Virus record (IMG/VR): IMGVR_UViG_3300042691_007835 | Location: 1-24,869 of that record | DNA length: 24,869 nucleotides | Source of the DNA: a virus | Strand: one strand, 5' to 3' | Shown: piece after piece, positions 2,953 through 23,205 of the stretch | Numbering within the stretch: position 1 is the stretch's first letter | Layout: every line of letters starts with the position of its first letter | Notes under the pieces: model-generated | What the model was told of the DNA's origin: nothing | Seen by the model: the letters and a program-made list of their open reading frames with translations, nothing else | The model's database searches: none | Program-made: the position numbers and the translations under genes

Positions 2953-4020
2953 TTATTCTAAAAAACTTGTTAATGTAGCGCCAGCACAAACACCGCTTGC
3001 TTGTTGGGTATTTACCCTGGCAATCTTTCGTTTTGAGATCAAATGAGGATTTGCTTTGAGCCAACAGTAAACTCCGTATTGGCAAAGACCTACCTCAGTA
3101 CCATACACTTTCATATTGTGTTGGTCATGTTCAAATACTTTCAACTCTCCAACATTGTAGTTGTGAAAGAACGGATGAATATTTATTCTCTCAAATAGTC
3201 TCTCTTGGTTATCTCTTAACCAAACTACCATGTCAGCATAAGGAAATTTCTTACCTGTCCATTTATCAAATATATGCTCTAATGATTCTCTGGCGCCAGG
3301 TCCTGGCGCACAGAAAGATTCATCATGATGAAACTTAAGGTATGGATTAACTGAGTTTGAAGTTGCACAGTGATACCCATAATATTCTCCTATTCCTGGT
3401 TTAGAAGTAAGAATATCATACATTGCCTTAAGAGAGTTAGCATTCTCTATAATATTATCTATAGTACCGTCGGCAGTCCAACTTGCAATCCATTCTATAA
3501 TATCTGAAAGAGAAGCTTGTCTGTTAGGATCATTATACTTGACCCTACAATAGTTTCTAGCCGCAGTTTGAATAGAAGTATGAAGCTCAGTAGTACCGTA
3601 GAACTTTTGTTTTTGTTGCCTACCTATATCTATATATCTTTTTATTTCGTTCAAATAGTCAATATCTCCCTTGGCTATTCGTTCAAAATCTACGTGAGCT
3701 TGCTTAACATCTGATATACCAGTAACCAATCCATGGATACCACGAGCTCCATAGAAGTGTGATATAATAGTATTACCTATCTTATTAGGCATAGATAAAG
3801 TCGGAACTGTAACGATATTCTCAATGATATATCTCATTCGATCATCTTGTAGAATATTGAAACCAAAGTATTCGACATCAGCATTAAGGGCTGGATCTAC
3901 TGTGTCATCATTAACATATTCATCTCTCAGCCCAAACTGCCATTCAGTTCTTTCATTAACCTTTACAAGAAAATGTTCGAAGTCCTTGAACTTATCTATG
4001 TTGAGATACTTCTCATACAT
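2953..4020 (-). CDS. Thymine pyrophosphorylase-like DNA hypermodification protein (HhH/glycosylase-type helical fold)
   Basis: This 355-residue protein resembles the alpha-glutamyl/putrescinyl thymine pyrophosphorylase group (the helical domain also found with 5-hydroxymethyl-dU kinases). The supporting segments are FGFNILQDDRMRYIIENI (53-70), the helix-hairpin-helix-like KPGIGEYYGYHCATSNS (207-223), and HHDESFCAPGPGA (231-243), with Asp233 in the position where a catalytic Asp would be expected. Members act on phosphorylated hydroxymethyl-pyrimidines in DNA and attach amino acids or polyamines. The start overlaps the stop of the HAD gene by eight bases, and the myo-inositol-phosphate synthase gene lies just before that. 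Family assignment is from remembered motifs, so the exact substrate is unknown. No hydroxymethylase or DNA kinase is present in this window. Confidence 0.6.
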   Translation of the reverse strand: MYEKYLNIDKFKDFEHFLVKVNERTEWQFGLRDEYVNDDTVDPALNADVEYFGFNILQDDRMRYIIENIVTVPTLSMPNKIGNTIISHFYGARGIHGLVTGISDVKQAHVDFERIAKGDIDYLNEIKRYIDIGRQQKQKFYGTTELHTSIQTAARNYCRVKYNDPNRQASLSDIIEWIASWTADGTIDNIIENANSLKAMYDILTSKPGIGEYYGYHCATSNSVNPYLKFHHDESFCAPGPGARESLEHIFDKWTGKKFPYADMVVWLRDNQERLFERINIHPFFHNYNVGELKVFEHDQHNMKVYGTEVGLCQYGVYCWLKANPHLISKRKIARVNTQQASGVCAGATLTSFLE

Positions 4021-4387
4021 GTCTCATATTTTCCTTATTAGTCAAGTCATGAGAAAGATGAACTATATTAATCCATGGACAAAGTCTCTTGATCTCAGTT
4101 ATCTGAATTGGATCATCTTCAAAATGAATTTCAATATTAAATCCATCATCTTTAAGTCTATTAAGAGTATTTGCCTTATGAACACCTGATCCTTCTCTAG
4201 ATTTCTCATCGAACTTTAGAGGATTAAAGAAAACTGGATTATTAATACCTGCTTCATGAAGCATCTGTCTAGTTTCAGGTTCTTCCTCAAAAGATCTGCC
4301 TGTAATGATAATATCGTCAGGACCTGGTCTAACACCGATCAGGCCTTTACGAATATAAATTACTCCATCAATATCAAATGTATTCAT
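4013..4387 (-). CDS. Small HAD-superfamily phosphatase
   Basis: A compact 124-residue HAD fold with no obvious cap domain. Motif I is FDIDGV (nucleophile Asp5, acid/base Asp7), motif II is IITGRS (27-32), motif III is probably Lys71, and motif IV is FEDDPIQ (89-95). The family removes phosphate from small metabolites or nucleic-acid ends. Its start overlaps the last base of the inositol-phosphate synthase stop codon (TAATG), and its stop overlaps the pyrophosphorylase-like gene by eight bases, so the three are translated together. One inferred role is dephosphorylation of inositol phosphate made by the upstream enzyme; action on a phosphorylated DNA base or nucleotide is an alternative. Confidence 0.8.
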   Translation of the reverse strand: MNTFDIDGVIYIRKGLIGVRPGPDDIIITGRSFEEEPETRQMLHEAGINNPVFFNPLKFDEKSREGSGVHKANTLNRLKDDGFNIEIHFEDDPIQITEIKRLCPWINIVHLSHDLTNKENMRHV

Positions 4388-5664
4388 TATGAGTAGTCAT
4401 TCTTTCCTTTTTGGAATGTGTATGGAAGATTCTTAGCTTTTGGTTTGTTAGCTTTAAGTTGTGGTTCTGTCATAGGTGTTACAATACGACGAGATAAAGC
4501 GTCACATTCAAATTTAGCGTCTTCCATCTTCATTTGTAATGGAGGAGTCTTTTGTGTAATATGACTTGCACCACGTAAGAAACCAACGATACCTAATTCA
4601 GAAGCAACTTTACAGAATCTAATTGCAGAGATAACAACTGAACCAGAGTTTGGAGAATCTTGTACAGATAATCTTGCGGTTAGTTCATATCGAGCTCCTG
4701 CAAATCCATAAGCAACGATATCTAAATTGGCGATCTTATTATCTGAACCTACATAAGTACCACCTGGTTTTTGTAAAACAGTTAATGAAGGGCCAGCATA
4801 TAATGTCATACCATCGATAGATTCGTTACGAACGATATTCTGTCCTTTCAATACGTTCTCTTTAGAGATATGTTTAGATTCTAATCGATATTCTTTTGCC
4901 ATATTCAAAAAGTCTGTATTTGCTGTACGACCAGTTCTAATAGTTTCTTGACCTTGTGTAGTACCTGCAGCCATGTTCATTTGAATATGTTGTGTAACCA
5001 TTAATCCAGAATCTAGCATTGCGGCTTGTAAAACTTCAGATAATCTTGAAGCACCAAATCCAGATCTCATATCAGATCCAACAATACTTAAACCTGCATC
5101 AATAAATCTTTGTTCAACTTCTTGTGCTTCCTCAGTCGCAATGAATGTAGGAATACAGTTAACAAAATGACAACCAGCTTTAATTGCAGCATCGATATAG
5201 AATTTAGATGCTTCATGAGAACCAACTGGTAGATAATTAATGACAACGTCAACTTTATGATATTGTAATAATTGAACTACGCGATCAAATGATTCTGCAG
5301 GAATAGCTCCAGTTCTAAATGAAACTTCTTCTGGATAATCCAACATATGTGGAGCAATACCATCAAGTTCTGGGCCTGAATAAACAATAGCATCTGGATG
5401 TACACATGCATCTGTGATTGCAAATACATGATCCATTGCACAATTTGGTTTTGCTCTTAATGCATCTTTTAATGAATGATTTACTTTACGAATATCCACA
5501 TCAAAACCGCAAACGAATTCAATATCATTTACAGTATATCCACCGATGTCTGGATACATTAAACCTACTTTGTCGTCTGGGTTTTCAATATAGTATTGAA
5601 TACCTTCAACGAGAGATTTGGCGCAGGAACCTACACCAACAATTGCTACTTTAATTTTTGACAT
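4387..5664 (-). CDS. ino1: myo-Inositol-1-phosphate synthase (actinobacterial/archaeal type)
   Basis: This 425-residue protein matches the family that converts glucose-6-phosphate to myo-inositol-1-phosphate using bound NAD. Visible features are the Rossmann start VAIVGVGSCAKSLVEGI (6-22), IGGYTVNDIEFVCGFDVD, the catalytic-domain segment GSDMRSGFGASRLSEVL (around 200), and the C-terminal SPNSGSVVISAIRF. The order and length fit the short bacterial/archaeal enzymes rather than eukaryotic Ino1. The start has a textbook AAAGGAG site. It is an uncommon auxiliary metabolic gene for a T4-like phage. Because it is fused by overlaps to a HAD phosphatase and a DNA-hypermodification-like protein, inositol may feed DNA modification; altered host lipid or osmolyte synthesis is an alternative. 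Confidence 0.88.
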   Translation of the reverse strand: MSKIKVAIVGVGSCAKSLVEGIQYYIENPDDKVGLMYPDIGGYTVNDIEFVCGFDVDIRKVNHSLKDALRAKPNCAMDHVFAITDACVHPDAIVYSGPELDGIAPHMLDYPEEVSFRTGAIPAESFDRVVQLLQYHKVDVVINYLPVGSHEASKFYIDAAIKAGCHFVNCIPTFIATEEAQEVEQRFIDAGLSIVGSDMRSGFGASRLSEVLQAAMLDSGLMVTQHIQMNMAAGTTQGQETIRTGRTANTDFLNMAKEYRLESKHISKENVLKGQNIVRNESIDGMTLYAGPSLTVLQKPGGTYVGSDNKIANLDIVAYGFAGARYELTARLSVQDSPNSGSVVISAIRFCKVASELGIVGFLRGASHITQKTPPLQMKMEDAKFECDALSRRIVTPMTEPQLKANKPKAKNLPYTFQKGKNDYS

Positions 5665-9267: not shown

Positions 9268-9977
9268 TATAAACTCAAAGCTTGATCTTGCTCTGTCCTC
9301 TGATAGTTGGATAATTTATCTAAGTAACCTTGATTACGTAGCTCTTTAAATACAAGGTTTTCGAATGAGAATTCTCCGCCTTTTTTAATTGCTGCACCAC
9401 GCATGTCGCGTAGCTTTTCTTTGAAGTGTTTGACTGAATCTAAATCAATATGACCTTTAATCATGTCATCGATCATCTTCATGTAGAACTTAACTTTTTT
9501 CTTAAGGTATGGATCCTTTAACATGTCATCACCAATAAATTCTGGTTTGGCGATCCATTCATCTTTAGTTAATGAATAGACTCCTTGTTGTTTTGGGTAT
9601 GCCACTGATACGTCTTGAGCGTATGGTTCTAATCCATATCCAAGTATAGTTATCTTATGTGACATCGTCCACATTTGTTTCTTATCTTGTAGATAATCAT
9701 CAAGTAATGGATTATCTTTTGCTATTAAAGATTTATCAACAACCAGATGTACGTCAAGATCAGACATATCAGTATAGTTGTAATTAGCATTTCCTCCGAG
9801 AAGGATAACTTCTTTAACAGCTGACTTAGGTATTTTAGCATATTCTCTCCATACTTCAGCAAACTGTAATAATTTAGCTCTGACTTCTGGTTTTAATTCA
9901 AAATCATTCCAGAGCTTTGGATTTAGCTCTTTATGATATTGCAACTGAAGTTTTAATTCTTTTAAAGTAACTTTCAT
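9267..9977 (-). CDS. Pol-beta-like nucleotidyltransferase domain protein
   Basis: The central motif is LLGGNANYNYTDMSDLDVHL (59-78), a G-G/N...S-D-x-D pattern with metal-binding Asp73 and Asp75, as in the minimal/pol-beta nucleotidyltransferase fold. A later segment PYAQDVSVAYPKQQGVYSL (117-135) matches a conserved part of this phage family that follows the active site, though its expected third acid is less clear. The C-terminal third is helical and basic. The family could transfer a nucleotide to RNA, protein or a small molecule; the target is unknown. Its start overlaps the stop of its neighbour as ATGA. It is unlike the HxGH-type nucleotidyltransferases elsewhere in the window. Confidence 0.78.
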   Translation of the reverse strand: MKVTLKELKLQLQYHKELNPKLWNDFELKPEVRAKLLQFAEVWREYAKIPKSAVKEVILLGGNANYNYTDMSDLDVHLVVDKSLIAKDNPLLDDYLQDKKQMWTMSHKITILGYGLEPYAQDVSVAYPKQQGVYSLTKDEWIAKPEFIGDDMLKDPYLKKKVKFYMKMIDDMIKGHIDLDSVKHFKEKLRDMRGAAIKKGGEFSFENLVFKELRNQGYLDKLSNYQRTEQDQALSL

Positions 9978-12881: not shown

Positions 12882-15474
12882 TGTTACGGTTTGGCAAATG
12901 TAGGCTGTGAACTGGAATACCGCCGTCTTCTCGTCCATTACCCTTTTGTCTAGCGCCTGATTTAGATCCACTTGGTCTGCCGCGTCCACGCTTCTCTTGT
13001 TTTTCATCATCTTTTTTCTCATCACCTTCATCATCTTTTTGAGCTTGACCACCATATGACGTACCTTTATGAGTAGTAATATGAGGGTGGCTCGTATCTG
13101 CTTTATAATCTTTATCATAAGCTGATTTATTAGCTGCTCTTAATTTTTGTGCATCTCTTAGATCATCAAGTTTACCTTCATCCATAACAGCTAATGTAGC
13201 ATTTACATATGACATAGCATGGTTATCTTCTGAAACATGTTCTACTTCTTCTTTAGCTAACTTGTCTGCAGCTTTATTAAGACCAGCGACTCGTTTAACA
13301 TTTTTGTTTAAAGCTTTTTGCATGCTAGGTTCGTTGTAATTAGAACCAGATGCATCCATCGCTCTATCAATTCTAACTTCTCGTTTTGTTATATCAGCAG
13401 AAGCTTTCTTAACATATGAACCTAGAGTCTTTTTATCTAACTCTTCGATTTGTTCTACTTCTTCTTTAGAAAGTTGTTGTGTTTTCTTAAGAGCTTGTCC
13501 AGCTAAATTAGCAGCTTTACCAGAACCTTCTTTATTAGATGAAGTTTTTTTCCAATCACCTTCATGCGACCAAGATTTAACTTTACCTGAAGCATCTTTC
13601 TCAACCTTATCTACAGCTTCATTAGCAACTTGCTGTGCAGTTTTATGACCAGCAATTACAGCAAGTTCTTTACCACTAATGCCATGTTCTTTACCTACTG
13701 CATCGTAATCTGCAGGAGTAAATTGTTTATGGCTTGAATAACCTTTCTTATCAGCATGATGCATCATTGAAGTATGAATGTCTTTCATCTTACCTTCATC
13801 GATCTGTACGTCTTCCTTAGTTAATTTCTTAACTGCAGTTGCAATACCATCTTCGCGTTTCCATGCTTTTGACTTATATTTTTTAGATAATCTATCAAGA
13901 GCACTCTTTAAACCTGGGTTACGTTTACGTTCTGCAGAATTTGCATAATCTTTAGAGATCATACCATGAATACGTGATGATTTAGCAGCTTTAGGAATAT
14001 AAGAAGCTAATGTATCTTTTGAGATTTCATCAATAGGTTCTACTTCTTCTTTTTGTACTTTAACTGGGTATGTCTTACCTTTGAACTCAAACTCTTTTTT
14101 ACCAGCTTTATGAGCAGAGTGTGCAGCCATACGAAGACCTGATTCGTCCATGTCATCTTCATCCATGCACTTCTTAGCTTCATTGCGAAGTTTCTCAAAG
14201 TCATCTGCATCAAGCTTACCGTTTTTATTTTTGTCAAGCTTATGCTGATTGCCTTTTAGTTCTTCTTTCTTCATGCTTCCATATTTACCTTCTTTTAAGA
14301 AGTCATTGAAATTTAACATAGTTACCCCTTCTTTAATTTTTTTAAATTTTTTCCATTTCTCATCGTAAACTTCGCCTTCTTTAACTTCTTTCTTTTCTGG
14401 CTCTGGTTTCTTTTCAACTGGTTTATTTTGGCCAGTGAAAGCTCTTTGAGCTACTTCTCTATTCTTTAAGAATGTAGCAATAATCTTATGACCTCTAGAT
14501 TCTTCTATTTCTAATTGTTCTTTAAAGTCTTTAACAGTCTTTTTCTTTTGTGTTAAAGGAATAGGCGGATTTAATACCTTTTTCTTATCAACAACATCTG
14601 TGCCGATGCCTTTATATTCTACAGCTTCTTTAGCTAATTTAGATACTGCCGTATCAATACCAGCAGAACGTTTAAGATATTTGGTTTTGCCTTTTGTATA
14701 AGTAGGATCAGTACCTGCACTTAATCCAGGTCTCTTAGAACTTGCAAGTTGATGGCCAAGATCATTTGCAGTCATTGCATTATCTTTATGAGCTTTCTTA
14801 ATATAAGAAGCTAAAGTGTTTTTAGAGATTTCATCAATCTGAACTTCTTCTACTTGTTCTTGAGAATTTTTAAGGTCTTGATCTGATGGAGCTCCTTTGC
14901 TACCTGGTTTTCTCATGCGTTCGCCAGATCCAGCTGCTATTCTTTTTCGTTTAGCATGGATATTTGCCCACAAACCTTTTTTACCTTCTTCTAGTTCTAC
15001 TTCCTCTTTAACTTTTTGTTTTTTCTTTTTAGCTTCAAGTTCTTGTTGTTGCTGTTCTAATTCTTTTTGATTATGTTCAGCTGCTTGGCGATCATCTTCC
15101 TCTTGGCTTTCAGTAAACTTTTCTACATCTGATGCACGTGTTGCATGAGATTTTCTATGAGAATGTTTTGATCTTCCATATTTTTTAACAAAATCGTCTG
15201 ATGATAAGTTATCTAAATCATCTTCCTCTTTTTTAGTTAAGAAAGCTTCTTCTAAATCACCTTTAATATCTGTTGACATACTTGGAGATACAAATGCTGC
15301 TTCATTCTTTTTAGAATAGTATGCGGCAAGAGCCATTTGGCGTCGTTTAGCCATAGATTTACCAGCAAATTGTGGATTATCTGAATGAACGAAATCATGG
15401 ATCCATTTAGCTGCTGGATCCTTTTTAGTTAAAACTTCATCTATCTGAGTTCTAATATCTTTTAATGACTTCAT
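12877..15474 (-). CDS. Large modular repeat protein, probable processed head-core/internal protein
   Basis: An 865-residue, very charged protein. Modules in order: N-terminal DPAAKWIHDFVHSDNP and RRQMALAAYYSKKN (19-56); a Gln/Lys/Glu-rich coiled region (120-160); three related repeats starting at about 208, 476 and 671; and an internal T4-leader-like MLNFNDFLKEG (386-396). An EF-hand loop (Asp414 to Asp425) and a C-terminal AT-hook-like RGRGRPSGSKSGAR (829-841) follow. Five sites fit the T4 prohead protease rule Leu/Ile-x-Glu before Ala/Gly/Ser (after 76, 163, 325, 395 and 560). This suggests a head-core polyprotein cut during capsid maturation, with DNA-binding pieces left inside. It follows Dps by one base and precedes the Ig-domain virion gene. 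Unknown family as a whole. Confidence 0.7.
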   Translation of the reverse strand: MKSLKDIRTQIDEVLTKKDPAAKWIHDFVHSDNPQFAGKSMAKRRQMALAAYYSKKNEAAFVSPSMSTDIKGDLEEAFLTKKEEDDLDNLSSDDFVKKYGRSKHSHRKSHATRASDVEKFTESQEEDDRQAAEHNQKELEQQQQELEAKKKKQKVKEEVELEEGKKGLWANIHAKRKRIAAGSGERMRKPGSKGAPSDQDLKNSQEQVEEVQIDEISKNTLASYIKKAHKDNAMTANDLGHQLASSKRPGLSAGTDPTYTKGKTKYLKRSAGIDTAVSKLAKEAVEYKGIGTDVVDKKKVLNPPIPLTQKKKTVKDFKEQLEIEESRGHKIIATFLKNREVAQRAFTGQNKPVEKKPEPEKKEVKEGEVYDEKWKKFKKIKEGVTMLNFNDFLKEGKYGSMKKEELKGNQHKLDKNKNGKLDADDFEKLRNEAKKCMDEDDMDESGLRMAAHSAHKAGKKEFEFKGKTYPVKVQKEEVEPIDEISKDTLASYIPKAAKSSRIHGMISKDYANSAERKRNPGLKSALDRLSKKYKSKAWKREDGIATAVKKLTKEDVQIDEGKMKDIHTSMMHHADKKGYSSHKQFTPADYDAVGKEHGISGKELAVIAGHKTAQQVANEAVDKVEKDASGKVKSWSHEGDWKKTSSNKEGSGKAANLAGQALKKTQQLSKEEVEQIEELDKKTLGSYVKKASADITKREVRIDRAMDASGSNYNEPSMQKALNKNVKRVAGLNKAADKLAKEEVEHVSEDNHAMSYVNATLAVMDEGKLDDLRDAQKLRAANKSAYDKDYKADTSHPHITTHKGTSYGGQAQKDDEGDEKKDDEKQEKRGRGRPSGSKSGARQKGNGREDGGIPVHSLHLPNRNK
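13240..13464 (-). repeat. Repeat unit 3 in the head-core-like protein
   Basis: Residues 671-745. It opens EEVEQIEELDKKTLGSYVKK and closes KRVAGLNKAADKLAKEEVEH. It is the most diverged of the three units but keeps the order: acidic lead, I-x-E, TLxSY, basic middle, hydrophobic helix ending KLAKEEV. Confidence 0.75.
13807..14049 (-). repeat. Repeat unit 2 in the head-core-like protein
   Basis: Residues 476-556. It opens KEEVEPIDEISKDTLASYIP and closes KREDGIATAVKKLTKEDV, followed directly by IDEG, a possible prohead protease site. The variable middle (about 35 residues) is basic and differs from unit 1. Confidence 0.8.
14608..14853 (-). repeat. Repeat unit 1 in the head-core-like protein
   Basis: Residues 208-289. 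It opens VEEVQIDEISKNTLASYIKK and closes KRSAGIDTAVSKLAKEAVEY. It shares the IDEISKxTLASYIxKA start and the GIxTAVxKLxKE end with unit 2 and, more loosely, unit 3. Confidence 0.8.
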
Positions 15475-15475
15475 A

Positions 15476-15925
15476 CTAATCTCCGAGTTTCTTTAAATAT
15501 GATTTAATCATCCATTCATGTTTCTTATGAATAGACATACGATCAGCTGCAAAGTTTGCTAAGCCTTGTTGTTTTTGTTTTGTTGCTTCGTCAAATAATT
15601 TACTTAGACTATCTAAAGTCTGAGCATTTGCTTCTAGTAAATTCATGAGCATCTCATGCACTGATCCAGGTAATGATGAATCTTCTGAAAACGTTTTATA
15701 GTTATACATCTCCATTAAACTAATAGGAGCATACGCATCTAGTTTTCTAATCTCTTCAGCTAAAGGATCTACTGCACCATGTAGATCTATGTATAAATCT
15801 CCAAAGAATGTATGAAATTCATTAAATAACATTCCTTCAACATTCCAATGGTAACTATGAGATTTAAAGTACATGGTAAATGTGTTACCAATTGCTATTT
15901 TAAGTGTTGCTAATAATTTGTCCAT
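15476..15925 (-). CDS. dps: Dps/ferritin-like DNA-protection protein
   Basis: This 149-residue protein matches the four-helix Dps family. SHSYHWNVEG (22-31) contains the ferroxidase-site His, FHTFFGDLYIDLHGAVDPLAEEIRKLD follows with the metal-binding Asp/Glu set, and the C-terminal helix HKKHEWMIKSYLKKL ends the fold. Dps forms a 12-subunit shell that oxidises iron with peroxide and can bind DNA. The gene lies between two large head-associated genes, one base before the repeat polyprotein. An inferred role is protection of phage DNA against oxidative damage in the cell or in the virion. A late-like AATAAATA just before the ATG is too close to be its promoter. Confidence 0.88.
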   Translation of the reverse strand: MDKLLATLKIAIGNTFTMYFKSHSYHWNVEGMLFNEFHTFFGDLYIDLHGAVDPLAEEIRKLDAYAPISLMEMYNYKTFSEDSSLPGSVHEMLMNLLEANAQTLDSLSKLFDEATKQKQQGLANFAADRMSIHKKHEWMIKSYLKKLGD

Positions 15926-15932
15926 GTATTAT

Positions 15933-17726
15933 TTATTCCTTCTTTAATCTATAGTTAACCAAGTCTGAAGCAGTTACATCAACATTCTCTTTCTTTGTTT
16001 TTTCATAGAAAGCTGAGAAACTAAGATCTTTAGTTCTTTGAACTCCTTTTGGATCTTTCTTTGGAACTAAATTAGGTGGTATAGTTTTAATTTTTTTAGC
16101 TACATCATCACCGATGCCGTCGCCAATCTCTCCACCATGACCTTCAGTAAATGTTACAGCAAATTCTTCATCCATTAGATCACCAGCAATAAATCCTTCT
16201 TTTTGCATCTTAGCTTTAATCTTAGCAACTTGTGCTTGATGATACTTAACTTTTTCATCATCTCCTGCTTTATTTGCTGCTAAAGCTTTTTCTGTATGTT
16301 TATCTGCTTGTTTTTTAAGATCTGCTGATTCAGTTGCGTATTGAACCTTTTGTCTACGTAAATGGTCTCTTGTTGCTAGTGTATGACCATTTTTAGTTTG
16401 TGTTTCAAATGGCCAATCTTGAAGATCATCAATCTGCTGACTAATATTTGGTTCGATAGGAGTTTTATCAAATTTAGTATCTTTAACAAAACCAGGTTGT
16501 ACTTTACCTAACTTCATAAACTCTTGATATGTCATAGCTGAACGTTTAATATTCTCATTATCATGTTTACTTTCTTCAATAGTTTCTTCTACAAGTTCAT
16601 CAAGCTGTTTCTTATGTTTTTCCCAAGATTCAGAATGTTGTGTAAATATACCAAGTTTAGATAAAGCTTCTTTTGCTTTAATATGAGCAATCTTAATATG
16701 TTTATTACTTACCATTTGATCATGACCTTTATTATTATTAGGTTCATTGATCTTTAAATAAGTATCGGTTGTCTTAATAGCGTTAAGCATAGCAACTGGA
16801 TCTTTAATTTCTCCAGCTAAAGATAACTTAAATGCTTTTGATGTTTCTGGGCAGCAATGGAAATGACTTGTTGTATATCCTTTATAGGATACTTGCGGAT
16901 TATGATCTTCTTTAACTTCCTCAGGTACACAATTAGGAACTTGTTTACCGTTCTTTTTCTTCATTCCTATCTGTTTATAATTTTTCCAGCATGCTTCTAC
17001 TAGACTTACATCTTTAATCCATTTACGATGAAGCTCACCTGATTTATCTACAACTACTAGATAATTAGAACCTCTATCCATAATCTCATATTGATGACCA
17101 GCCGATTCAACAATATCTCCAATATGATAGATCTCGCCTTTAAAGTATTTGTCTCTTAATTGGTCGATATTGAACTTAAGTTCTTCTTTAAGAACTTCAA
17201 GACCTGCTACTTGTCTCATCTCATTCATCATTCGACGAGCGTCAATATCTCTTATAGATGAAGGTAACTGAAGCTTAAATGCTTGATAGTCACCCTTAGT
17301 CATGTATGATCTGATCTTATTATTATCTGGATTTTGTTCGCCTGTAGAAACTACCTGGACTGATTCAAATAATTTGCTAGTAATAGCCTTTTCAAATGTT
17401 TTAACTTTATCTTCTGAAGTAACTATAACAACATTCTTATATCTATTTTTTAACTTAGATACTTCCTCAACTAGATGGTCTTCATTGATACTTGTAAAGT
17501 TAAGCTTATTAAACATAAGCTCAAGAAAGTGGATCTTCCTGTCAACAGGAAGAGTATTCTGTTCTTCGGTAACGTAGATGACATGATCAGCATTATGACT
17601 ATGCACTAGTTTTTCAACCAGTTTGAAAGCCATCTCATGCATGACTGTAGGAGGATTGAAGCTGCCGACTGACATTACTACTGTCTTAGAAGGCAACTCT
17701 TTTATTAGTTGTCTGTAGTTCTTCAT
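15933..17726 (-). CDS. HxGH-type nucleotidyltransferase fused to modular virion-protein segments
   Basis: A 597-residue mosaic. Residues about 14-175 form a cytidylyltransferase/NMN-adenylyltransferase-like domain, with GSFNPPTVMH at 21-30 for nucleotide binding and DIDARRMMNEMR in place of the usual C-terminal ISxTxxR motif. After it come an SH3/KOW-like stretch (196-240, FKGEIYHIGDIVE, MDRGSNYLVVVD), CWKNYKQIGMKKKNGKQVPN (246-265) and the YKGYTTSHFHCCPE segment (281-294). Helical charged tails follow. The later modules resemble those of marine phage virion proteins. The N-terminus MKNYRQLIKEL is a leader-like sequence in T4 capsid-targeting register, so the enzyme may be carried inside the head. 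A late promoter lies 35 bases upstream. Substrate is unknown. Confidence 0.72.
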   Translation of the reverse strand: MKNYRQLIKELPSKTVVMSVGSFNPPTVMHEMAFKLVEKLVHSHNADHVIYVTEEQNTLPVDRKIHFLELMFNKLNFTSINEDHLVEEVSKLKNRYKNVVIVTSEDKVKTFEKAITSKLFESVQVVSTGEQNPDNNKIRSYMTKGDYQAFKLQLPSSIRDIDARRMMNEMRQVAGLEVLKEELKFNIDQLRDKYFKGEIYHIGDIVESAGHQYEIMDRGSNYLVVVDKSGELHRKWIKDVSLVEACWKNYKQIGMKKKNGKQVPNCVPEEVKEDHNPQVSYKGYTTSHFHCCPETSKAFKLSLAGEIKDPVAMLNAIKTTDTYLKINEPNNNKGHDQMVSNKHIKIAHIKAKEALSKLGIFTQHSESWEKHKKQLDELVEETIEESKHDNENIKRSAMTYQEFMKLGKVQPGFVKDTKFDKTPIEPNISQQIDDLQDWPFETQTKNGHTLATRDHLRRQKVQYATESADLKKQADKHTEKALAANKAGDDEKVKYHQAQVAKIKAKMQKEGFIAGDLMDEEFAVTFTEGHGGEIGDGIGDDVAKKIKTIPPNLVPKKDPKGVQRTKDLSFSAFYEKTKKENVDVTASDLVNYRLKKE

Positions 17727-17760
17727 GTTATTCCATCTATAAATTATTGTCTTATAATAT

Positions 17761-17768
17761 TATTTATA
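17761..17768 (-). promoter_or_regulatory. T4-type late promoter (TATAAATA)
   Basis: An exact TATAAATA octamer on the minus strand, 35 bases before the ATG of the 597-residue gene and overlapping the last codons of the preceding small gene. T4-like late transcription uses this element with a gp55-type sigma factor, and the position is right for a short leader. Confidence 0.75.
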
Positions 17769-18000
17769 CAGCCGAGAGTATCACTTTTGTAATATTTACT
17801 ACCCAACGAGAAGTAACTTCATCTCCAGCTAATTCATCATTTGCTTGTACGTCACCAATTTGAGTTACCAAGTCTTTGAATTCTGCTTCTGTTAAGATAC
17901 CATCATTATATTGCTCTGTAATATCATGTAACTGTTGAGCTAAGGCTCCTTTAATACCAGGTTCTGACATTGCTTCTCTTAGTTCGTTTAATACTGACAT
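17764..18000 (-). CDS. Small protein of the late block, function unknown
   Basis: A 78-residue mostly helical, acidic protein. The middle ITEQYNDGILTEAEFKDLV resembles a SHOCT-like or half EF-hand motif, and the C-terminus is hydrophobic (WVVNITKVILSAV). The N-terminus MSVLNELREA contains Leu-x-Glu before Ala at 7-10, which fits the prohead protease rule, but it lacks the aromatic residues of the clearer leaders. It starts one base after the lipoprotein gene ends. Probably a virion or assembly protein by context only. Confidence 0.6.
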   Translation of the reverse strand: MSVLNELREAMSEPGIKGALAQQLHDITEQYNDGILTEAEFKDLVTQIGDVQANDELAGDEVTSRWVVNITKVILSAV

Positions 18001-18001
18001 T

Positions 18002-18352
18002 TTAGCGTCCTTTCCATGCTTTCTCTATGACCTGAACACGGGTCTTTTGTAATTTTAAGGTGGCTTCACAATATGGTATTGATCCGTCCCTTGCCTTTTG
18101 AATCGCAAAGTATAGTTCCTCAATATTTTTAGCTTGTGGGTCTGCTCTAAACTCTGTATACATGTTCAACCATCTAAGGTCGTCAACAGTTGACTGCCAT
18201 CTTGGGAAGTCTTTTGTTGCTCCACAGGTTAAAGTCTCCATCTTCTGTTTAATGTCTATAAGCTTAGCAGCTTCTGCTGGATCATGCGGTACTGGTAGGA
18301 TGAAGCTGCAACCAGTTAAAAGTATTGCTGCTATAAGTGTTAATTTTTTCAT
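18002..18352 (-). CDS. Small lipoprotein in the structural block
   Basis: About 116 residues, beginning MKKLTLIAAILLTGC with the lipobox LTGC (Cys15). I place the start at 18352 because AGGAG sits six bases upstream and the signal peptide then begins correctly; an in-frame ATG at 18379 would add nine polar residues before it. The mature part is helical with two cysteines (one in LTCGATKDFPRW, one in IPYCEATL). Ser at +2 after the lipid cysteine suggests outer-membrane sorting. Late phage lipoproteins often block receptors or entry of other phages; that role here is inference. Confidence 0.75.
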   Translation of the reverse strand: MKKLTLIAAILLTGCSFILPVPHDPAEAAKLIDIKQKMETLTCGATKDFPRWQSTVDDLRWLNMYTEFRADPQAKNIEELYFAIQKARDGSIPYCEATLKLQKTRVQVIEKAWKGR

Positions 18353-18360
18353 AATATCTC

Positions 18361-19689
18361 CTATGTTAATTCTTCCCAATTTATTGAAGCTACTACATTA
18401 GGGTTACCTGTAGTGGTAGTAGATGCCACAAGAATAAATTCATAATATGTTTTTGGACTAGTCAGTGTATTTCTTTCTAATTGGAAAGCAAAAGGGAATT
18501 GATCAGTACTTGGTGCAGCTACTGATTGATTTGACGATATAACATAACCTTGTTCATATACAAATTGTGTTGATGTTATACCCGTTGCTGTTAAATTATA
18601 CTCAACTGAACTGTCTGAACCAGCGTCAACCCATGTTCCACCTGTAGTTATACCTTGTATAAGATTCCATCTAATGTTTGCGGCTGATAATGGAGCTAAT
18701 GAAAAGTTTTTAGGTAAAACTATACCACCGTCTCTACCAGCTTTTAAACGTATACTTAATATAGGATATTCCGTATTGGCTGCAGCCAATGTATAAGTAG
18801 AATTTAATAAGTGACCAATTGCTTTTGGTCGTCCTCTTAACTCGAATCCACCTTCAGATATAACAGTTGTACAAATTTGTCTAAATGTACTTGAACTTGC
18901 TGTTGTTCCAGTGTTAGTAATTTCCCATCTTACTGGTAAACAAGAAGATCCCATATATGTAGTAGCTAGAGGTACGCCTGTTGAGATCTCAGTATTTGCA
19001 TTATGGAATGTATGACAATGAATGAATTCACCATTAATTACAAATCCGCATCTAACTGAACCAACGCCTAACCATTCTATATCAAACCATAATATTTGTG
19101 TTCTATCTAAATCTAATGCGCCAAATGTATTTACGTTCCAATCGGCTTGAGCAATCTTACGTTCTACTGGAGAACCATTAGCTGAACTTGATCTTAGCAC
19201 AAAATATGCAGTGCCATTACTTCTTTCTAGATATAAACCATTTTCTAGGTTAAAATAACCAACACGTTGTCTTAAGTTAGTTTTGTCTGGATTCATACTA
19301 AATGTAGTAAGAATTTGCAAACTTTTACCTGGTTGATATGCAAATACTCTACTAGTTTCTCTAATAATAGAATCTCCATTTGTAGTACCAATAGACATTG
19401 TTAGTGAACTAGAATTTGAGTCATGAGTTACTGTAGCTGTTCCAGATGTTTGTGTAGATATATGTGCGTTATCTGAGTACTTCATTGACAAATCAAACAA
19501 CGTAAATGGGTTTGACGTTCTTAATCTTCCAAAAGCATCTGACTGTGTTGGTGCAAAGAAACTGGTATCTGATGTTCCAGTAACATATATTGGATTAGCA
19601 TCTGAGTTAACCGTAGTATTTTTAGATACTGGAATTGGATTTCCAATATCATTCTTAATCTCTTGATTGTTAGTAAATAAGTACGTCAT
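18361..19689 (-). CDS. Virion surface/fibre-like structural protein
   Basis: This 442-residue, beta-rich, Ser/Thr/Asn-rich protein has no signal peptide. The segment SDAFGRLRTSNPFTLFDLSM (49-68) is a hallmark of a widespread phage structural protein family. A jelly-roll-like middle follows (ILWFDIEWLGVGSVRCGFVI, HCHTFHNAN), and a C-terminal part ends with TYYEFILVAS. The family is usually found with baseplate or tail-fibre genes and may be a receptor-binding or adaptor protein. Its start overlaps the stop of the neighbouring structural gene as ATGA, so the two are likely partners in one structure. Confidence 0.7.
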   Translation of the reverse strand: MTYLFTNNQEIKNDIGNPIPVSKNTTVNSDANPIYVTGTSDTSFFAPTQSDAFGRLRTSNPFTLFDLSMKYSDNAHISTQTSGTATVTHDSNSSSLTMSIGTTNGDSIIRETSRVFAYQPGKSLQILTTFSMNPDKTNLRQRVGYFNLENGLYLERSNGTAYFVLRSSSANGSPVERKIAQADWNVNTFGALDLDRTQILWFDIEWLGVGSVRCGFVINGEFIHCHTFHNANTEISTGVPLATTYMGSSCLPVRWEITNTGTTASSSTFRQICTTVISEGGFELRGRPKAIGHLLNSTYTLAAANTEYPILSIRLKAGRDGGIVLPKNFSLAPLSAANIRWNLIQGITTGGTWVDAGSDSSVEYNLTATGITSTQFVYEQGYVISSNQSVAAPSTDQFPFAFQLERNTLTSPKTYYEFILVASTTTTGNPNVVASINWEELT

Positions 19690-20489
19690 ACTATTCTCCA
19701 GCCATTTCTATAAATCATTTGAATGGCTCCGTTATTAATTTGAATTATAAATCCACCTGCATCATTGTCAACTGTTCCTAATACTGTTATAGGATTTGTC
19801 TCAGCATCTCCATCTTCATCTTTAATAATCAACATTCTTCCTGAATTTGCGGATGCCGGCAATGTAATAGTTACTGGCCCAGCATAGTTAACACCAATAT
19901 AAAAGTCATTATCATCTACGGTATATGTTGATGTAGTAACTTGTGTCGTATTATAAACAACCTCATATGGATTGATTTCATCGAATACGAACTTCTTGTC
20001 TGCTTCAGAATACTTTAACCAACGACCATCAGCGATCGTATCTCTTTTGACGTCATCTAACCATCTGAGATTTACTTCACCGCCTCCTGGTCCAGTTGCT
20101 GCGATCCTACCGATAGCTTGTTCCAAGAACTTCATTTTTAATCTAATAGCTTCTATATCTTTAGAAACTAGGTCAGGATTAGGTTGTTGGAATGATTTAT
20201 CTTTTAAGTATTTATTGACGTCATCGGTTACCTGTTTTTCTTTTACTTCAGGTGTATGAATGACTGGTTGATATGGAATCTCTTCAGTAATGATTTGCTC
20301 TGTAGATTCCTTCGACTCTTCAAGTTTGTCTACTTGCTTTTGTAGTACAGAAAGTTCTTCAAAGAGTTTTTGTAAATCAGATTTTGCATGCTGTTTTACT
20401 TCCTTAAGTTTTTTACCCTTAGGATCGTTCTCTTCATAATGTTTCTTACCTTCGGCAAGAACCTTAAATAGTTCATTAAGATCTGACAA
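19686..20489 (-). CDS. Coiled-coil structural protein with C-terminal fibre-like domain (TTG start)
   Basis: A 267-residue protein. Residues 1-70 and 105-130 are helical/coiled, IRLKMKFLEQAIGRIAATGPGGG leads into LRWLDDVKRDTIADGRWLKY, and the last 90 residues are a beta domain (TYTVDDNDFYIGVNYAGPVT, GRMLIIKDEDGD, MIYRNGWRI) frequent in phage fibre proteins. The start codon is TTG, with AAGGAAG seven bases upstream and no early in-frame ATG, directly abutting the previous stop (TAA-TTG), so translation must be coupled. The N-terminus MSDLNELFKVLAEG has Leu-x-Glu-Gly at 11-14, a weak match to a processing site. Confidence 0.72.
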   Translation of the reverse strand: MSDLNELFKVLAEGKKHYEENDPKGKKLKEVKQHAKSDLQKLFEELSVLQKQVDKLEESKESTEQIITEEIPYQPVIHTPEVKEKQVTDDVNKYLKDKSFQQPNPDLVSKDIEAIRLKMKFLEQAIGRIAATGPGGGEVNLRWLDDVKRDTIADGRWLKYSEADKKFVFDEINPYEVVYNTTQVTTSTYTVDDNDFYIGVNYAGPVTITLPASANSGRMLIIKDEDGDAETNPITVLGTVDNDAGGFIIQINNGAIQMIYRNGWRIV

Positions 20490-21119
20490 TTATTTACTTC
20501 CTTGATGTACGTCATGCATGAGTTCTTTTGCGTGTTTATCTGAAACATGCTCTGGAACTCCTTTACGGAATTCATGAAAATTTCCAGCATGTGCATGTTC
20601 TCTTTGCTTAGTTCCTGAAACTCCACTAGTACCTTCAGCATCTGGATCACGATGACCAGCAGAATGAACAGTTATCTTCTTAAAGTTGTAATGCCCGTGC
20701 CCTGACTTTTGGCCATTATACTTATGTAATAATGAATGCATCTCTTTTTTACGATCAGAGCCAACAACTACATGAAGATGTGTTACACCTTTCTTATGCA
20801 ATTCAGCAGCATGATGTAATATAGTTGGATGTTCTGAAGATGATGACTTAAAGCTAGTCTTTGGAGAATATCTCTTTAGATGCTTAAGCTTTTGCGCTGC
20901 AGTTAAAGGATTCTTTTTCTTATCTTGAGAATGACTTGTAACTACAGTATGGTCTGCTTTATGTTTATCAGCAACATCATGAACCTTATGGATAACTTGC
21001 ATATGACCTGTAGTCGGTGGATTCATACGACCAAAAGCTAGGACATGATGCTTATCCGAACCATGTCCTTTTTCGTCTTTATCTTCTTTGATATATTCTT
21101 TAAAGTTTAGCAATTCCAT
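20490..21119 (-). CDS. HxGH-type nucleotidyltransferase with capsid-targeting-like leader
   Basis: A 209-residue His/Lys-rich protein. The cytidylyltransferase-like fold is shown by LAFGRMNPPTTGHM (27-40, ATP/CTP binding), VVVGSDR (117-123) and SGVSGTKQREHA (165-176, equivalent to the ISxTxxR motif). Such enzymes join a nucleotide to NMN, pantetheine phosphate or related acceptors; the substrate here is unknown. The N-terminus MELLNFKEYIKED has the aromatic-x-x-aromatic-Ile-x-Glu pattern of the T4 capsid-targeting sequence, followed by KDEKGHGSDK, nearly identical to the linker of the ligase-like protein. Its start lies inside the DUF6321-like gene. Probably packaged in the head together with its neighbours. 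Confidence 0.75.
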   Translation of the reverse strand: MELLNFKEYIKEDKDEKGHGSDKHHVLAFGRMNPPTTGHMQVIHKVHDVADKHKADHTVVTSHSQDKKKNPLTAAQKLKHLKRYSPKTSFKSSSSEHPTILHHAAELHKKGVTHLHVVVGSDRKKEMHSLLHKYNGQKSGHGHYNFKKITVHSAGHRDPDAEGTSGVSGTKQREHAHAGNFHEFRKGVPEHVSDKHAKELMHDVHQGSK

Positions 21120-21394
21120 TTTCTTAATGCCTTATTAATGCGTGAATCAGGATCTCTTGCTGTTTTAGCTGATGTTAGTCTCTTTTTCATTCCACCCATA
21201 CGAGCACAGAATGATTTACGACGATTTGCAGCTTTACTACCTTTCTTTAATTTTGAAGGTTTAGTAGTAACAGCAGTTTGAAGATTTCCGCCTGTCTTTC
21301 TATTATAGGCATCTACTCCTTTCTGTGTCATACCACCTGAAGGACTAAAATGACCCTTCTTATCTTCTTCGAGATATTCTTTAAATGTAAGCAT
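21107..21394 (-). CDS. Small basic DUF6321-like protein with capsid-targeting-like leader
   Basis: 95 residues. The leader MLTFKEYLEED is followed by a basic domain: GGMTQKGVDAYNRKTG, KAANRRKSFCARMGGMKKR, and DPDSRINKALRKWNC at the end. This matches a small phage family I know as DUF6321, of unknown function; the conserved Cys pair and Arg/Lys content suggest nucleic-acid or metal binding. It starts at the last base of the ligase-like gene's stop (TAATG) and overlaps the nucleotidyltransferase gene by 13 bases. The leader is the cleanest match in the set to T4 internal protein leaders, so head packaging is inferred. Confidence 0.75.
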   Translation of the reverse strand: MLTFKEYLEEDKKGHFSPSGGMTQKGVDAYNRKTGGNLQTAVTTKPSKLKKGSKAANRRKSFCARMGGMKKRLTSAKTARDPDSRINKALRKWNC

Positions 21395-22578
21395 TATCGA
21401 TTCCTTAATAAATTAGCTCTACTAAATTCTTGTCTGTTAACAAGTTTAGTTGGAGCACCTTTGTGATTAACTACAAATCCTTCTGGGTTTGCTTCTTGAT
21501 TATCAATATGATGACTTAAACCACCATGATGTTGATTCAAAGTATTTACTAAGACATCTTTAGCCTTAGCAATGTGTTGATGCATTTTAAATAGGTTATC
21601 ATAATATTCTTTATTTTTTTGAATATGATTAACGTGTTCTTCTGCTTCGGCATGTTTTACATTAGCAGCTTTTGCTGTTTTAAGTTTACTTGCGGCTGCC
21701 TTAGCTTTGTCTAGAATGTGTTGTTGTAGACCTCTTGCTGAAGGTTTTTCTCCCTTACGAACGGTCTGATTAATATAAGTTACCATATGGCCACCCTCAC
21801 CTTGATGAGGTTCAGTTAATGGATACATCATTTTACCATGTTCGTCATGAATCTTTTTAGCAGCATCAATATGTTTTTGGAATTGAATTTGATTTACTTT
21901 AGAATAATCAGTTGTTGATGTATCATGTTCTGCTGTCTTATGCCATACGTCATCATTTTGTCTGAACTTATGCTCAATAGTAGGACTTGCCTTCATATCT
22001 TCTATGTTATTACCATGATATTGTTGATGAACAACTACACCAACTTTAGCATTTTTAATCTTGTTGGCATCTTGGCCATGAGCAGTATAGGTAATAGTAT
22101 TTGGTTTAAATGAAGCTGATCCTTCTGGATTATGTACTACATCACCATGACTAAACATTAAGTCTCCTTGGTACACGCCCTTTTTAGGTGTTACTTTTGG
22201 TAAATGTTCTAATGCATGATAAAGTTTAGCTGCAAGTTCTGGCTTATCTCCATGATGTAATTTAATGTCATCCACAGTATGATTGATCTTAGGATTCTTA
22301 TTAAATGCTGATTTTGTAGCTACAAAGAACTTACCAGTCTTTGGATGATGTCCAAAAACTATAGCTGGAGATCCATCATACTTCATAGTTAAACCTGAAT
22401 CTTTTTTACCAGACTTAATATGTTCATGAGCTTGTGTTAAAGCTCCAACTGTATGCTCGAATCCTTTTTTACCATGTAGTAATGGTCTATCCTCAGGATG
22501 ATGGATATGTTTTAACTTGTCAGAACCATGTCCTAACTCATCTTTTTCTTCTGTTAAAAAATCTATAAATGTTTTCAT
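21394..22578 (-). CDS. Ligase-superfamily (KxDG) nucleotidyltransferase with capsid-targeting-like leader
   Basis: A 394-residue protein with the marks of covalent nucleotidyltransferases. TMKYDGSPAIVFG (64-76) has the adenylation Lys66 in a KxDG motif, FFVATKSAFNK is motif III-like, VYQGDLMF (135-142) resembles the conserved GxL/M strand, PEGFVV (365-370) is motif IV and TKLV (377-380) is a motif V-like lysine. Members are DNA or RNA ligases and capping enzymes that transfer AMP or GMP. It is His-rich. The leader MKTFIDFLTEE is almost the same as that of T4 internal proteins, and the following KDELGHGSDK linker is shared with the nucleotidyltransferase two genes downstream. It may seal or cap nucleic acid early in infection after injection. 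Confidence 0.75.
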   Translation of the reverse strand: MKTFIDFLTEEKDELGHGSDKLKHIHHPEDRPLLHGKKGFEHTVGALTQAHEHIKSGKKDSGLTMKYDGSPAIVFGHHPKTGKFFVATKSAFNKNPKINHTVDDIKLHHGDKPELAAKLYHALEHLPKVTPKKGVYQGDLMFSHGDVVHNPEGSASFKPNTITYTAHGQDANKIKNAKVGVVVHQQYHGNNIEDMKASPTIEHKFRQNDDVWHKTAEHDTSTTDYSKVNQIQFQKHIDAAKKIHDEHGKMMYPLTEPHQGEGGHMVTYINQTVRKGEKPSARGLQQHILDKAKAAASKLKTAKAANVKHAEAEEHVNHIQKNKEYYDNLFKMHQHIAKAKDVLVNTLNQHHGGLSHHIDNQEANPEGFVVNHKGAPTKLVNRQEFSRANLLRNR

Positions 22579-23186
22579 TTTATTTGTGTAACCGTTCCGT
22601 CTGAATGGGCATGAAATGCCTCAAATTTAATCATAGGGAATAAGTATTGTAGTTTTAAGAATTCCTTAAGATTATTTATGCTATCGTCGAATAGCCTTAC
22701 CTTTGAGAATTGCTTGGTATCTAGATAGTTCTTAATGATGATAGCTTTCTTGAATGCTGGAATAAACTGACCAGCTATCTTACCGGCTCGTTCTACTCTT
22801 ACCTTATCGATATCGAATCCATACTTTCTAAATGTATCTAGGAATCTTTCTCTATCATCAAAGTCGTTTCTAGCTGTAACAATAACCACTTTAGAATTTG
22901 GATGTGATGCTGTATTCTTAACTATAGATTTAGCTTTGGCAAACATCTTCTTAATTGGAGTAGCTTCTCTGTAGAACTTCTCAGCATCAGCAAACTCGCT
23001 GAAGTCTTCAGTTTCACCTGGTTTTAGTTGGTAGGAGTTGAACTCTGATGTGGTAAGGGAGTGAATTACCTTACCTTTCTTTTTGATTAGTATCTTAGCG
23101 GTAGTGTGGAAGAGAGTGTCATCGATATCGAATATTGTAAGTCCACCATCTTTGTATTGCTTTGCATATTCTTTAAATTTGAGCAT
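22575..23186 (-). CDS. HAD-superfamily phosphatase in the internal-protein operon
   Basis: About 203 residues. HAD motifs are clear: motif I TIFDIDDTLFH (two Asp), motif II VVIVTARND, motif III a Lys in AFKKAIII, and motif IV VRLFDDS. Length and order match a phosphatase family common in marine phages; polynucleotide-end or small-molecule phosphate is a likely substrate. I choose ATG at 23186 because GGAAAAG lies just before it and the product then starts MLKFKEYAKQ like its neighbours; an in-frame ATG at 23195 is possible. The leader lacks the Leu-x-Glu cleavage site, having Ala and Gln instead. It overlaps the ligase-like gene as ATGA, suggesting the two act together, for example in end healing and sealing. 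Confidence 0.8.
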   Translation of the reverse strand: MLKFKEYAKQYKDGGLTIFDIDDTLFHTTAKILIKKKGKVIHSLTTSEFNSYQLKPGETEDFSEFADAEKFYREATPIKKMFAKAKSIVKNTASHPNSKVVIVTARNDFDDRERFLDTFRKYGFDIDKVRVERAGKIAGQFIPAFKKAIIIKNYLDTKQFSKVRLFDDSINNLKEFLKLQYLFPMIKFEAFHAHSDGTVTQIK

Positions 23187-23205
23187 CTTTTCCATCTATA
23201 GTTAT

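Follow-up and report, generated by a model that had tools for sequence, protein, structure and literature searches.

The window analysed here is a 24,869-nt (24.9-kb) fragment of an aquatic T4 relative (IMG/VR record IMGVR_UViG_3300042691_007835) in which five unrelated proteins carry versions of one ten-residue leader (Table 1). The initial annotation had placed these five leaders in a common register, and all of them are present where it reported them, as is the degenerate MLKFKEYAKQ on the HAD protein. It had also given MKTYQEFIAE as the start of T4 internal proteins II and III (IPII and IPIII), and both called T4 genes do begin in this way. Mutational mapping of the IPIII leader, a capsid-targeting sequence (CTS), assigned targeting to residues 4 and 7 and found residues 8 and 10 to be required for processing (PMC9026906). 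All five window leaders have an aromatic or hydrophobic residue at 4 and 7 (Leu7 in MKNYRQLIKE) followed by the processing residues (L/I)xE, that is Leu/Ile 8 and Glu 10. The latter are absent from the HAD protein, several orthologues of which have an intact leader (MLKFKEYITE, MLNFKEYIKE, MKSFKTFIAE). The initial annotation missed two leaders of other lengths that end in (L/I)xE: MKSLKDIRTQIDE on the 865-aa ORF, whose counterparts in relatives read ..QINE-V, MKSYKDMINE-V, ..RLDE-I and ..QLDE-V, and a less certain one, MKVTLKE on a 236-aa protein. A third candidate, the N-terminus MSDLNELFKVLAE of a 267-aa protein, was excluded because that protein matches a tail-fibre family.

Table 1. Leaders in the window and the genes that carry them.
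Feature	Positions	Strand	Remarks
Degenerate leader MLKFKEYAKQ, HAD protein	23157-23186	-	positions 4 and 7 (targeting) kept; 8 and 10 (processing) lost: Ala8, Gln10
HAD protein	22575-23195	-	degenerate leader MLKFKEYAKQ
Leader MKTFIDFLTE, DUF6267 (RNA/DNA-ligase-like) protein	22549-22578	-	in 42/42 distinct leaders of homologues the four functional positions keep their class
DUF6267 protein, 394 aa	21394-22578	-	KxDG motif; ligase-like nucleotidyltransferase fold predicted; residues 1-22 (leader and linker) disordered
Leader MLTFKEYLEE, DUF6321 protein	21365-21394	-	on the 95-aa protein
DUF6321 protein, 95 aa	21107-21394	-	carries leader MLTFKEYLEE
Leader of 209-aa protein, ME-LLNFKEYIKE (ATG) or MLNFKEYIKE (TTG at 21113)	21084-21119 (LLNFKEYIKE, 21113-21084)	-	all 17 homologues, those of S-SM1, S-SCSM1 and S-CREM2 among them, keep Glu12
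Cytidylyl/NMN-adenylyltransferase-like protein, 209 aa	20490-21119	-	GRMNPPTTGH; homologue of T4-GC190, a virion-detected protein
Leader MKNYRQLIKE, nucleotidyltransferase fusion	17697-17726	-	MKNYRQLIKE or MKNYRQLIRE retained in several relatives
Nucleotidyltransferase fusion, 597 aa	15933-17726	-	carries leader MKNYRQLIKE
13-residue N-terminal leader MKSLKDIRTQIDE, 865-aa ORF	15436-15474	-	(I/L)xE then V/I retained in relatives
Leader MLNFNDFLKE, residue 386 of 865-aa ORF	14290-14319	-	in relatives, opens a second, separate gene
Repeat-rich ORF, 865 aa	12877-15474	-	N-terminal MKSLKDIRTQIDE and inner MLNFNDFLKE
Possible short leader MKVTLKE ahead of LKLQLQYH, 236-aa protein	9957-9977	-	homologue S-CREM2 ORF156 (MKKLISE-LKLTLQTH) virion-detected
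Nucleotidyltransferase-like protein, 236 aa	9267-9977	-	possible leader MKVTLKE

Two of the leaders had been described as out of place. That of the 209-aa protein was said to be shifted by two residues; the leader stands, but the shift probably vanishes, as 10 of the 11 distinct relatives have TTG as codon 3 of this gene and one has CTG, with AAGGA about 7 nt upstream of it in most of them, and initiation at the TTG would give MLNFKEYIKE in exact register. Likewise, the supposed internal start in the 865-aa ORF does carry a leader, but, judged from the gene order of relatives, MLNFNDFLKE opens a second gene that has become joined to the preceding one. In at least six relatives the upstream gene ends right at MLKFNDYLKE or MLKFNDFLKE, its stop codon meeting the new start (as in TAATG); in the window that stop has been removed by a short change, and AAGGGG lies 5 nt before the inner ATG. 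The idea that surplus (L/I)xE sites reflect multiple cleavage of the 865-aa protein was dropped, since 10 sites against 7.4 expected is not significant; the 907-aa protein of a 160-kb relative (G001) has 12 against 5.8 expected (7/1000 shuffles).

The regularity of the leader exceeds chance, as the initial annotation had judged. Of the 31 window genes, 3 fit the strict pattern M..[FYW]..[FYWLMIV][LI].E, against 0.01 expected by composition (Poisson about 2e-7), a count that leaves out the 209-aa start and the internal 865-aa start. As a positive control, the pattern matches IPII and IPIII alone among 250 T4 genes, and a looser pattern adds gp24, another gp21-cleaved protein. In a set of 16 sequences, of which 15 are whole or long phage genomes, 26/3154 gene starts fit the strict pattern, compared with 3/12,319 Met positions inside genes (Fisher 2e-15). 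In retrieved loci, which were picked near tagged genes, 180/1901 starts and 5/9279 internal Mets fit it. Alignment across related phages tells the same story: in 42 distinct DUF6267 leaders position 4 is always F, 7 always F/Y, 8 always L/I and 10 always E, while neighbouring positions vary. That four positions stay fixed while the free ones range widely indicates that selection is active. A leader of just ten residues, first noticed after the fact, invites the suspicion of a chance resemblance among short N-termini, but the pattern tested was set beforehand by the T4 work, and the DUF6267 constraint together with the counts at starts and internal Mets refutes this explanation, to which I give practically no weight.

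Related contigs contain 191 distinct tagged proteins, whose bodies make up 21 (single linkage) to 34 families. The 160-kb relative has five strict matches among 197 genes, all inside a single cluster of 12 kb that is homologous to the window, and the highest number of tagged families per contig is six, on a 12-kb contig (L011) where the cluster lies between uvsX/gp41 and the gp61 primase. The DUF6267 orthologues of Syn33, S-CRM01 and XG4 are without the leader. Thus, a leader found on at least 21 unrelated bodies and missing from some orthologues behaves as a detachable tag. Furthermore, the window leaders fit the description of CTS propeptides, which are about 10-19 residues long and stand ahead of an otherwise complete protein, because orthologues occur with and without them and because they are disordered outside the fold.

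The tagged proteins themselves are diverse. In the DUF6267 protein K66, D68 and G69 of motif I (KxDG) of the ATP-dependent RNA/DNA ligase superfamily are invariant in 29 homologues, and VIA-align comparison of its predicted structure places ligases in the top rows (best Z 9.2 over 182 residues; Foldseek E above 0.1, so that Foldseek alone gave no significant match). The 209-aa protein has the signature GRxNPPTxGH, with G30, R31, N33-P35, G38 and H39 invariant, and NadD/NMNAT structures rank first for its predicted structure (Foldseek E 9e-5); by signature and modelled fold it is a member of the NadD/NMNAT nucleotidylyltransferase superfamily. Sequence searches of solved structures gave nothing useful for DUF6267 and, for the family of the 209-aa protein, a single weak match; a search for an NMNAT homologue in S-TIM5 and S-CBWM1 returned no match, and PADLOC gave weak matches only. 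Two of the tagged proteins, the DUF6321 protein of 95 aa and the repeat-rich one of 865 aa, are not recognisable enzymes. The original proposal that a set of enzymes is packaged and injected is partly supported: that the leaders are of T4 type and mark capsid cargo is well supported, and injection is a prediction.

In the predicted structures of the 209-aa and 394-aa proteins, folded from alignments of the window and IMG/VR loci only, the leader is disordered and outside the folded domains; AlphaFold places short helices at residues 6-11 and 4-15, respectively. Such helices, and the position of many tagged genes among replication genes (uvsX/gp41 to gp61 primase), are what one might expect if the leader were an amphipathic helix that docks to the replisome, membrane or RNA polymerase with neither packaging nor cleavage. 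However, docking does not need an invariant Glu 10 with Leu/Ile 8, the register is that of IPIII, and tagged homologues occur in purified virions of three cyanophages (S-SM1, S-SCSM1 and S-CREM2); I regard docking as unlikely.

The detection in virions comes from published proteomes. Homologues of the window 209-aa enzyme are among the proteins detected in the virions of S-SM1 (T4-GC190, leader MKKFSAFLNE), S-SCSM1 (an NMNAT, MKSFLQFLKE) and S-CREM2 (a cytidylyltransferase, MKNFSSFLTE). S-CREM2 virions also yielded a SAM hydrolase (MKDFDSFLEE), a kinase (VKRFDAFLTE, from a GTG start) and ORF13 (MKDLHSFLTE). S-CREM2 ORF175 (MNWLKNYLIE) was not detected, and the loosely matching S-SCSM1_30 (MKTFKQFMSE) is not flagged as a virion protein. 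When the S-CREM2 morphogenesis blocks are left aside, 4 of 5 proteins with a leader were detected against 9 of 154 others (Fisher 1.3e-4), and over the whole genome leader proteins are enriched among those detected at Fisher 0.012. An S-CRM01 protein with leader MISFDQFLSE is annotated as a kinase and probably corresponds to the virion kinase of PMC10665884. The authors of the proteomes caution that CsCl purification may carry along abundant proteins, and in the parts available they mention no leader or targeting signal and do not decide whether the proteins are truly encapsidated. If the detected proteins were simply co-purified from infected cells, the leader could be a functionless relic of domain shuffling, and the slight excess in within-contig leader likeness at free positions (0.278 against 0.231 expected) could come from shared 5'-end descent. 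I consider this quite improbable, given that positions 4, 7, 8 and 10 are fixed while free positions vary widely, that tagged proteins are over-represented in the non-structural part of what was detected in S-CREM2, and that the HAD family displays what leader decay looks like.

A gp21-type protease, which the initial annotation had suggested seeking, is found in related genomes but not in the window, a 24.9-kb fragment for which this negative result carries little information. Among the related IMG/VR contigs I identified the protease (peptidase family S77) in the four longest ones (G001-G004); it is also present in HTVC008M and in eight further records including T4, plus S-SCSM1 and S-SM1. 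S-CBWM1, a no-protease control, has no strict matches, whereas S-TIM5 has two though S77 was not detected there; thus, this control is half clean. In HTVC008M and XG4 gp21 is present and a strict leader was not found.

Taken together, the IPIII register, the conservation of four positions, the gp21 of relatives and the virion-detected homologues of three cyanophages give good support to capsid cargo, and I conclude that the leaders are very probably T4-type capsid-targeting sequences that mark head cargo for processing by the protease and delivery to the host. By analogy with T4, residues 4 and 7 would bind the prohead scaffold core during head assembly, so that tagged proteins are built into the prohead; gp21 would then cut after (Leu/Ile)-x-Glu, normally at residue 10, and free the mature proteins inside the head to enter the next host with the DNA. 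I found no report in the literature of new virion N-termini right after the Glu. The presumed cargo comprises the RNA/DNA-ligase-like DUF6267 protein, two NMN-adenylyltransferase-like proteins, the repeat-rich protein and the DUF6321 protein, with the HAD phosphatase-like protein added in some relatives, and it may act early in infection, for example on RNA repair or NAD. Because a T4-type leader sits on unrelated enzymes and tagged proteins appear in the virion proteomes of relatives, the source phage probably brings a set of finished enzymes with it into the infected cell.

More broadly, I lean, with some reserve, towards a general modular cargo system in aquatic T4-like phages, in which a portable leader is gained, lost and regained over more than 20 unrelated families and each phage injects its own kit before phage gene expression. 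The families concerned include ligase-like, NMNAT-like, HAD phosphatase, SAM hydrolase, kinase and possibly Cas9-like nuclease proteins. If this is true, the leader would predict injected effectors from sequence alone, as secretion signals do for secreted proteins; early effectors would be predictable for abundant aquatic phages known from metagenomic contigs, many annotated as hypothetical only, and the head-carried early functions indicated are RNA repair or NAD chemistry. Cyanophage proteomes repeatedly hold cytidylyl/NMN-transferases and kinases that their authors could not tell from contaminants. A T4-type leader on these enzymes offers a straightforward explanation that can be tested, and what was puzzling in the proteomes becomes a rule that can be read from sequence.

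Among known systems, the gp21-cut CTS of T4 IPI, IPII and IPIII is likewise an N-terminal leader of about ten residues with aromatics at 4 and 7, Leu/Ile at 8 and Glu at 10; IPII and IPIII share an identical leader on differing mature parts, and the S77 protease occurs in genomes related to the window. However, T4 tags small basic proteins, whereas the window and its relatives tag ligase-like, NMNAT-like, DUF6321 and repeat proteins, and in relatives the tagged genes lie together between uvsX/gp41 and the gp61 primase. T4 Alt, a gp21-cut ADP-ribosyltransferase that is packaged and injected, is also an enzyme delivered with DNA, but it is a single enzyme outside the families tagged here. The ejection or inner-body proteins of the giant phages phiKZ and SPN3US have propeptides cut by a gp21-like protease after a short Glu-ending motif (PMC9026906), a likeness drawn from their description. 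The virion cytidylyl/NMN-transferases and kinases of S-SM1, S-SCSM1, S-CREM2 and S-CRM01 include the family of the 209-aa protein and have the same leader; the accessible published accounts give no targeting signal for them.

The five leaders described in the initial annotation are all present: MLTFKEYLEE (95-aa DUF6321 protein), MKTFIDFLTE (394-aa DUF6267 protein), MLNFNDFLKE (within an 865-aa ORF), MKNYRQLIKE (597-aa protein) and LLNFKEYIKE (209-aa protein). In the T4 internal protein IPIII, whose leader is identical to that of IPII, entry into the prohead core depends on residues 4 and 7 and processing on residues 8 and 10, the cut follows L/I-x-E, and Asp at position 10 permits targeting but not processing (PMC9026906). 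The pattern I tested was set beforehand by this T4 work and run as a strict regular expression (M..[FYW]..[FYWLMIV][LI].E) on automatically called genes. It finds exactly IPII and IPIII among 250 T4 genes; a looser form adds gp24, likewise a substrate of the prohead protease gp21. Three of the 31 window genes match the strict form versus 0.01 expected, bearing out the earlier judgement that the likeness was too regular for chance, as do five of 197 genes in the 160-kb relative G001, all in the cluster at 49-61 kb that is homologous to the window. Pooled over 16 sequences, matches number 26 at 3154 gene starts versus 3 at 12,319 internal Met positions. The leader observation is confirmed and strengthened.

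Alignment across relatives points the same way. The 80 DUF6267 homologues gave 42 distinct N-termini, all with Phe at position 4, Phe/Tyr at 7, Leu/Ile at 8 and Glu at 10; positions 2, 3, 5, 6 and 9 vary. The leader Glu is likewise invariant in 17 sequences of the 209-aa family (including the cyanophages S-SM1, S-SCSM1 and S-CREM2), as are the GRxNPPTxGH residues. AlphaFold places leader and linker outside the well-folded domains (residues 1-22 of the DUF6267 protein, 1-19 of the 209-aa protein; pLDDT <50). The four leader positions are under selection.

Two starts needed revision. The 209-aa protein has its leader, but the two-residue shift first ascribed to it disappears with a TTG start, which gives MLNFKEYIKE in register; 10 of 11 distinct relatives carry TTG at codon 3, mostly with AAGGA 7 nt upstream, and initiation at TTG is most likely. 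MLNFNDFLKE does lie within the 865-aa ORF, but relatives begin a separate gene there, their upstream gene stopping right at the second leader (for example ...YDEKWKKFNFKKNTKGAK-stop, TAATG). In the window a short change, which may be either a natural fusion or an assembly slip, abolished that stop, and the ATG is preceded at 5 nt by AAGGGG. A longer leader of its own, MKSLKDIRTQIDE, heads the upstream half; in it (I/L)xE followed by Val/Ile is kept across all relatives seen. The window's 236-aa protein has MKVTLKE ahead of LKLQLQYH, and its S-CREM2 homologue (MKKLISE-LKLTLQTH) is among the proteins detected in virions.

The leader is a detachable tag. The fetched contigs and genomes hold 191 distinct proteins with the strict leader. 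Single-linkage clustering of the protein bodies gives 21 families, or 34 when only the first 140 residues behind the leader are compared; 21 is the safer count, because some tagged proteins are joined by shared modules such as DUF6321. One contig (L011) carries six tagged families. DUF6267 has the leader in the window, G001, another long relative (G002), DLP6, C48C1 (one residue later) and Melnitz, and lacks it in Syn33, S-CRM01 and XG4. Leaders in the HAD family may be intact (MLKFKEYITE, MLNFKEYIKE, MKSFKTFIAE, MKNFKNFITE) or absent; the window's MLKFKEYAKQ, rightly called degenerate, and MKTFKQHLDD of G002, with Asp at 10, largely keep the targeting positions and have no cleavage site.

A module, CWKNYKQIGMKKKNGKQVPNCVPEE, recurs with variants in many otherwise unrelated tagged proteins at IMG/VR loci, in some families right behind the leader. 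The 597-aa protein also contains AMTYQEFMKLG, like the T4 leader MKTYQEF but without a cleavage site, perhaps a fusion relic. Among L001-L317 contigs having at least two tagged families, with relatedness not fully controlled, leaders of different families within one contig are slightly more alike at free positions (0.278 vs 0.231 expected, 0/2000 permutations), a pattern that could reflect a leader dialect particular to each phage group.

Coordinates of features in the window and in comparison phages
Feature	Sequence	Positions	Remark
5-hmdU DNA kinase helical-domain protein (PF18723)	window	2953-4020	adjoins PF01658 gene
Myo-inositol-1-phosphate synthase-like protein (PF01658)	window	4387-5664	adjoins PF18723 gene
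Dps-type ferritin-like protein	window	15476-15925	
AMTYQEFMKLG in 597-aa protein	window	16506-16535	residue 398
CWKNYKQIGMKKKNGKQVPNCVPEE module in 597-aa protein	window	16917-16991	residues 246-270
S-PM2 split DUF6267 and T4-GC190	L178	6785-8564	
S-SCSM1 ORF93	L323	6511-6720	69 aa
S-TIM5 strict match MKIYSNFLLE	L364	1036-2154	beside virion structural genes
S-TIM5 strict match MFDYVEFINE	L365	744-1205	

The window, an entire 24,869-base IMG/VR record, is a fragment of a T4-like phage. Related phages keep the order uvsX/gp41, DUF6267, cytidylyltransferase, then gp61 primase and nrdA, with which the window agrees where the two overlap. The annotated phage collection held no close relative (a single 111-base stretch at ~82%); IMG/VR held many, including a 4.3-kb contig identical (100%) to residues 1-361 of the DUF6267 protein and others matching it at 59-71%. 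The PF18723 and PF01658 neighbours suggest a hypermodified thymine in the phage DNA. The Dps-type gene lies between two tagged genes, itself without leader. Related phages encode an S77 (gp21-type) protease. Counting against the capsid-targeting reading, S-TIM5 has two strict matches and no detected S77 protease; HTVC008M and XG4 encode the protease yet have no strict leader.

Tagged homologues are found in cyanophage virions in published proteomes. In purified S-SM1 virions gp21 was accompanied by the cytidylyltransferase T4-GC190 (PMC3037559), which begins MKKFSAFLNE; S-SCSM1 virions contain an NMNAT (PMC9602691) that begins MKSFLQFLKE and is a homologue (35.9% over 184 residues, E 2e-32) of the 209-aa protein in the window. 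The 52 proteins detected in S-CREM2 virions (PMC10665884) include a SAM hydrolase (MKDFDSFLEE), a kinase (VKRFDAFLTE, GTG start), a cytidylyltransferase (MKNFSSFLTE), ORF13 (MKDLHSFLTE) and a Cas9-like nuclease in whose annotated sequence LRFASFMAE starts at residue 17. Detection covered 4/5 loose matches among this phage's 218 proteins (Fisher 0.012) and, outside head and tail blocks whose limits I chose, 4/5 versus 9/154 others (Fisher 1.3e-4). The kinase found in S-CRM01 virions (PMC10665884) is probably the kinase-annotated protein starting MISFDQFLSE. Also against the capsid-targeting reading, S-SCSM1 and S-CREM2 each have one protein with a loose leader that went undetected in virions. 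S-PM2 has DUF6267 split, its C-terminal part in frame with T4-GC190, which is thus leaderless; T4-GC190 was not detected in S-PM2 virions, weak evidence because the same proteome also failed to show gp21 and further genuine virion proteins. The S-SCSM1 virion protein ORF93 has a leader-like RTFKEFLEYIE at its C terminus.

As to cargo, invariant KxDG and EGxV...K residues, and RNA and DNA ligases as best structural neighbours of the predicted core (VIA-align Z up to 9.2), make a ligase-like DUF6267 likely but not proven, Foldseek being not significant. The 209-aa model has a NadD/NMNAT fold (Foldseek E 9e-5), and the HAD protein weakly matches a polynucleotide-kinase PHROG. A ligase-like, HAD phosphatase and NMNAT-like set would be suited to repairing RNA or replenishing NAD as infection begins.

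This analysis establishes the leader, its register, constraint and modularity, the protease in relatives and the virion detection of tagged homologues. The capsid-targeting reading first proposed is supported by the IPIII register, the constraint, the protease and the tagged virion homologues, and targeting of the window proteins is well supported by sequence and by their homologues' detection in virions. The leader would bind the scaffold core, cleavage would follow its Glu, and the tagged proteins would be injected and act early in infection. The available portions of PMC3037559, PMC9602691 and PMC10665884 make no mention of a targeting leader, and a full-text search on cyanophages and capsid targeting, with subscription journals largely outside coverage, returned only a T4 review. 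The leader would account for virion-associated enzymes reported, but left unexplained, in cyanophages. The mechanism itself is T4's and already known; what is new is the broad, modular use of the T4 leader on enzymes in aquatic T4-like phages.
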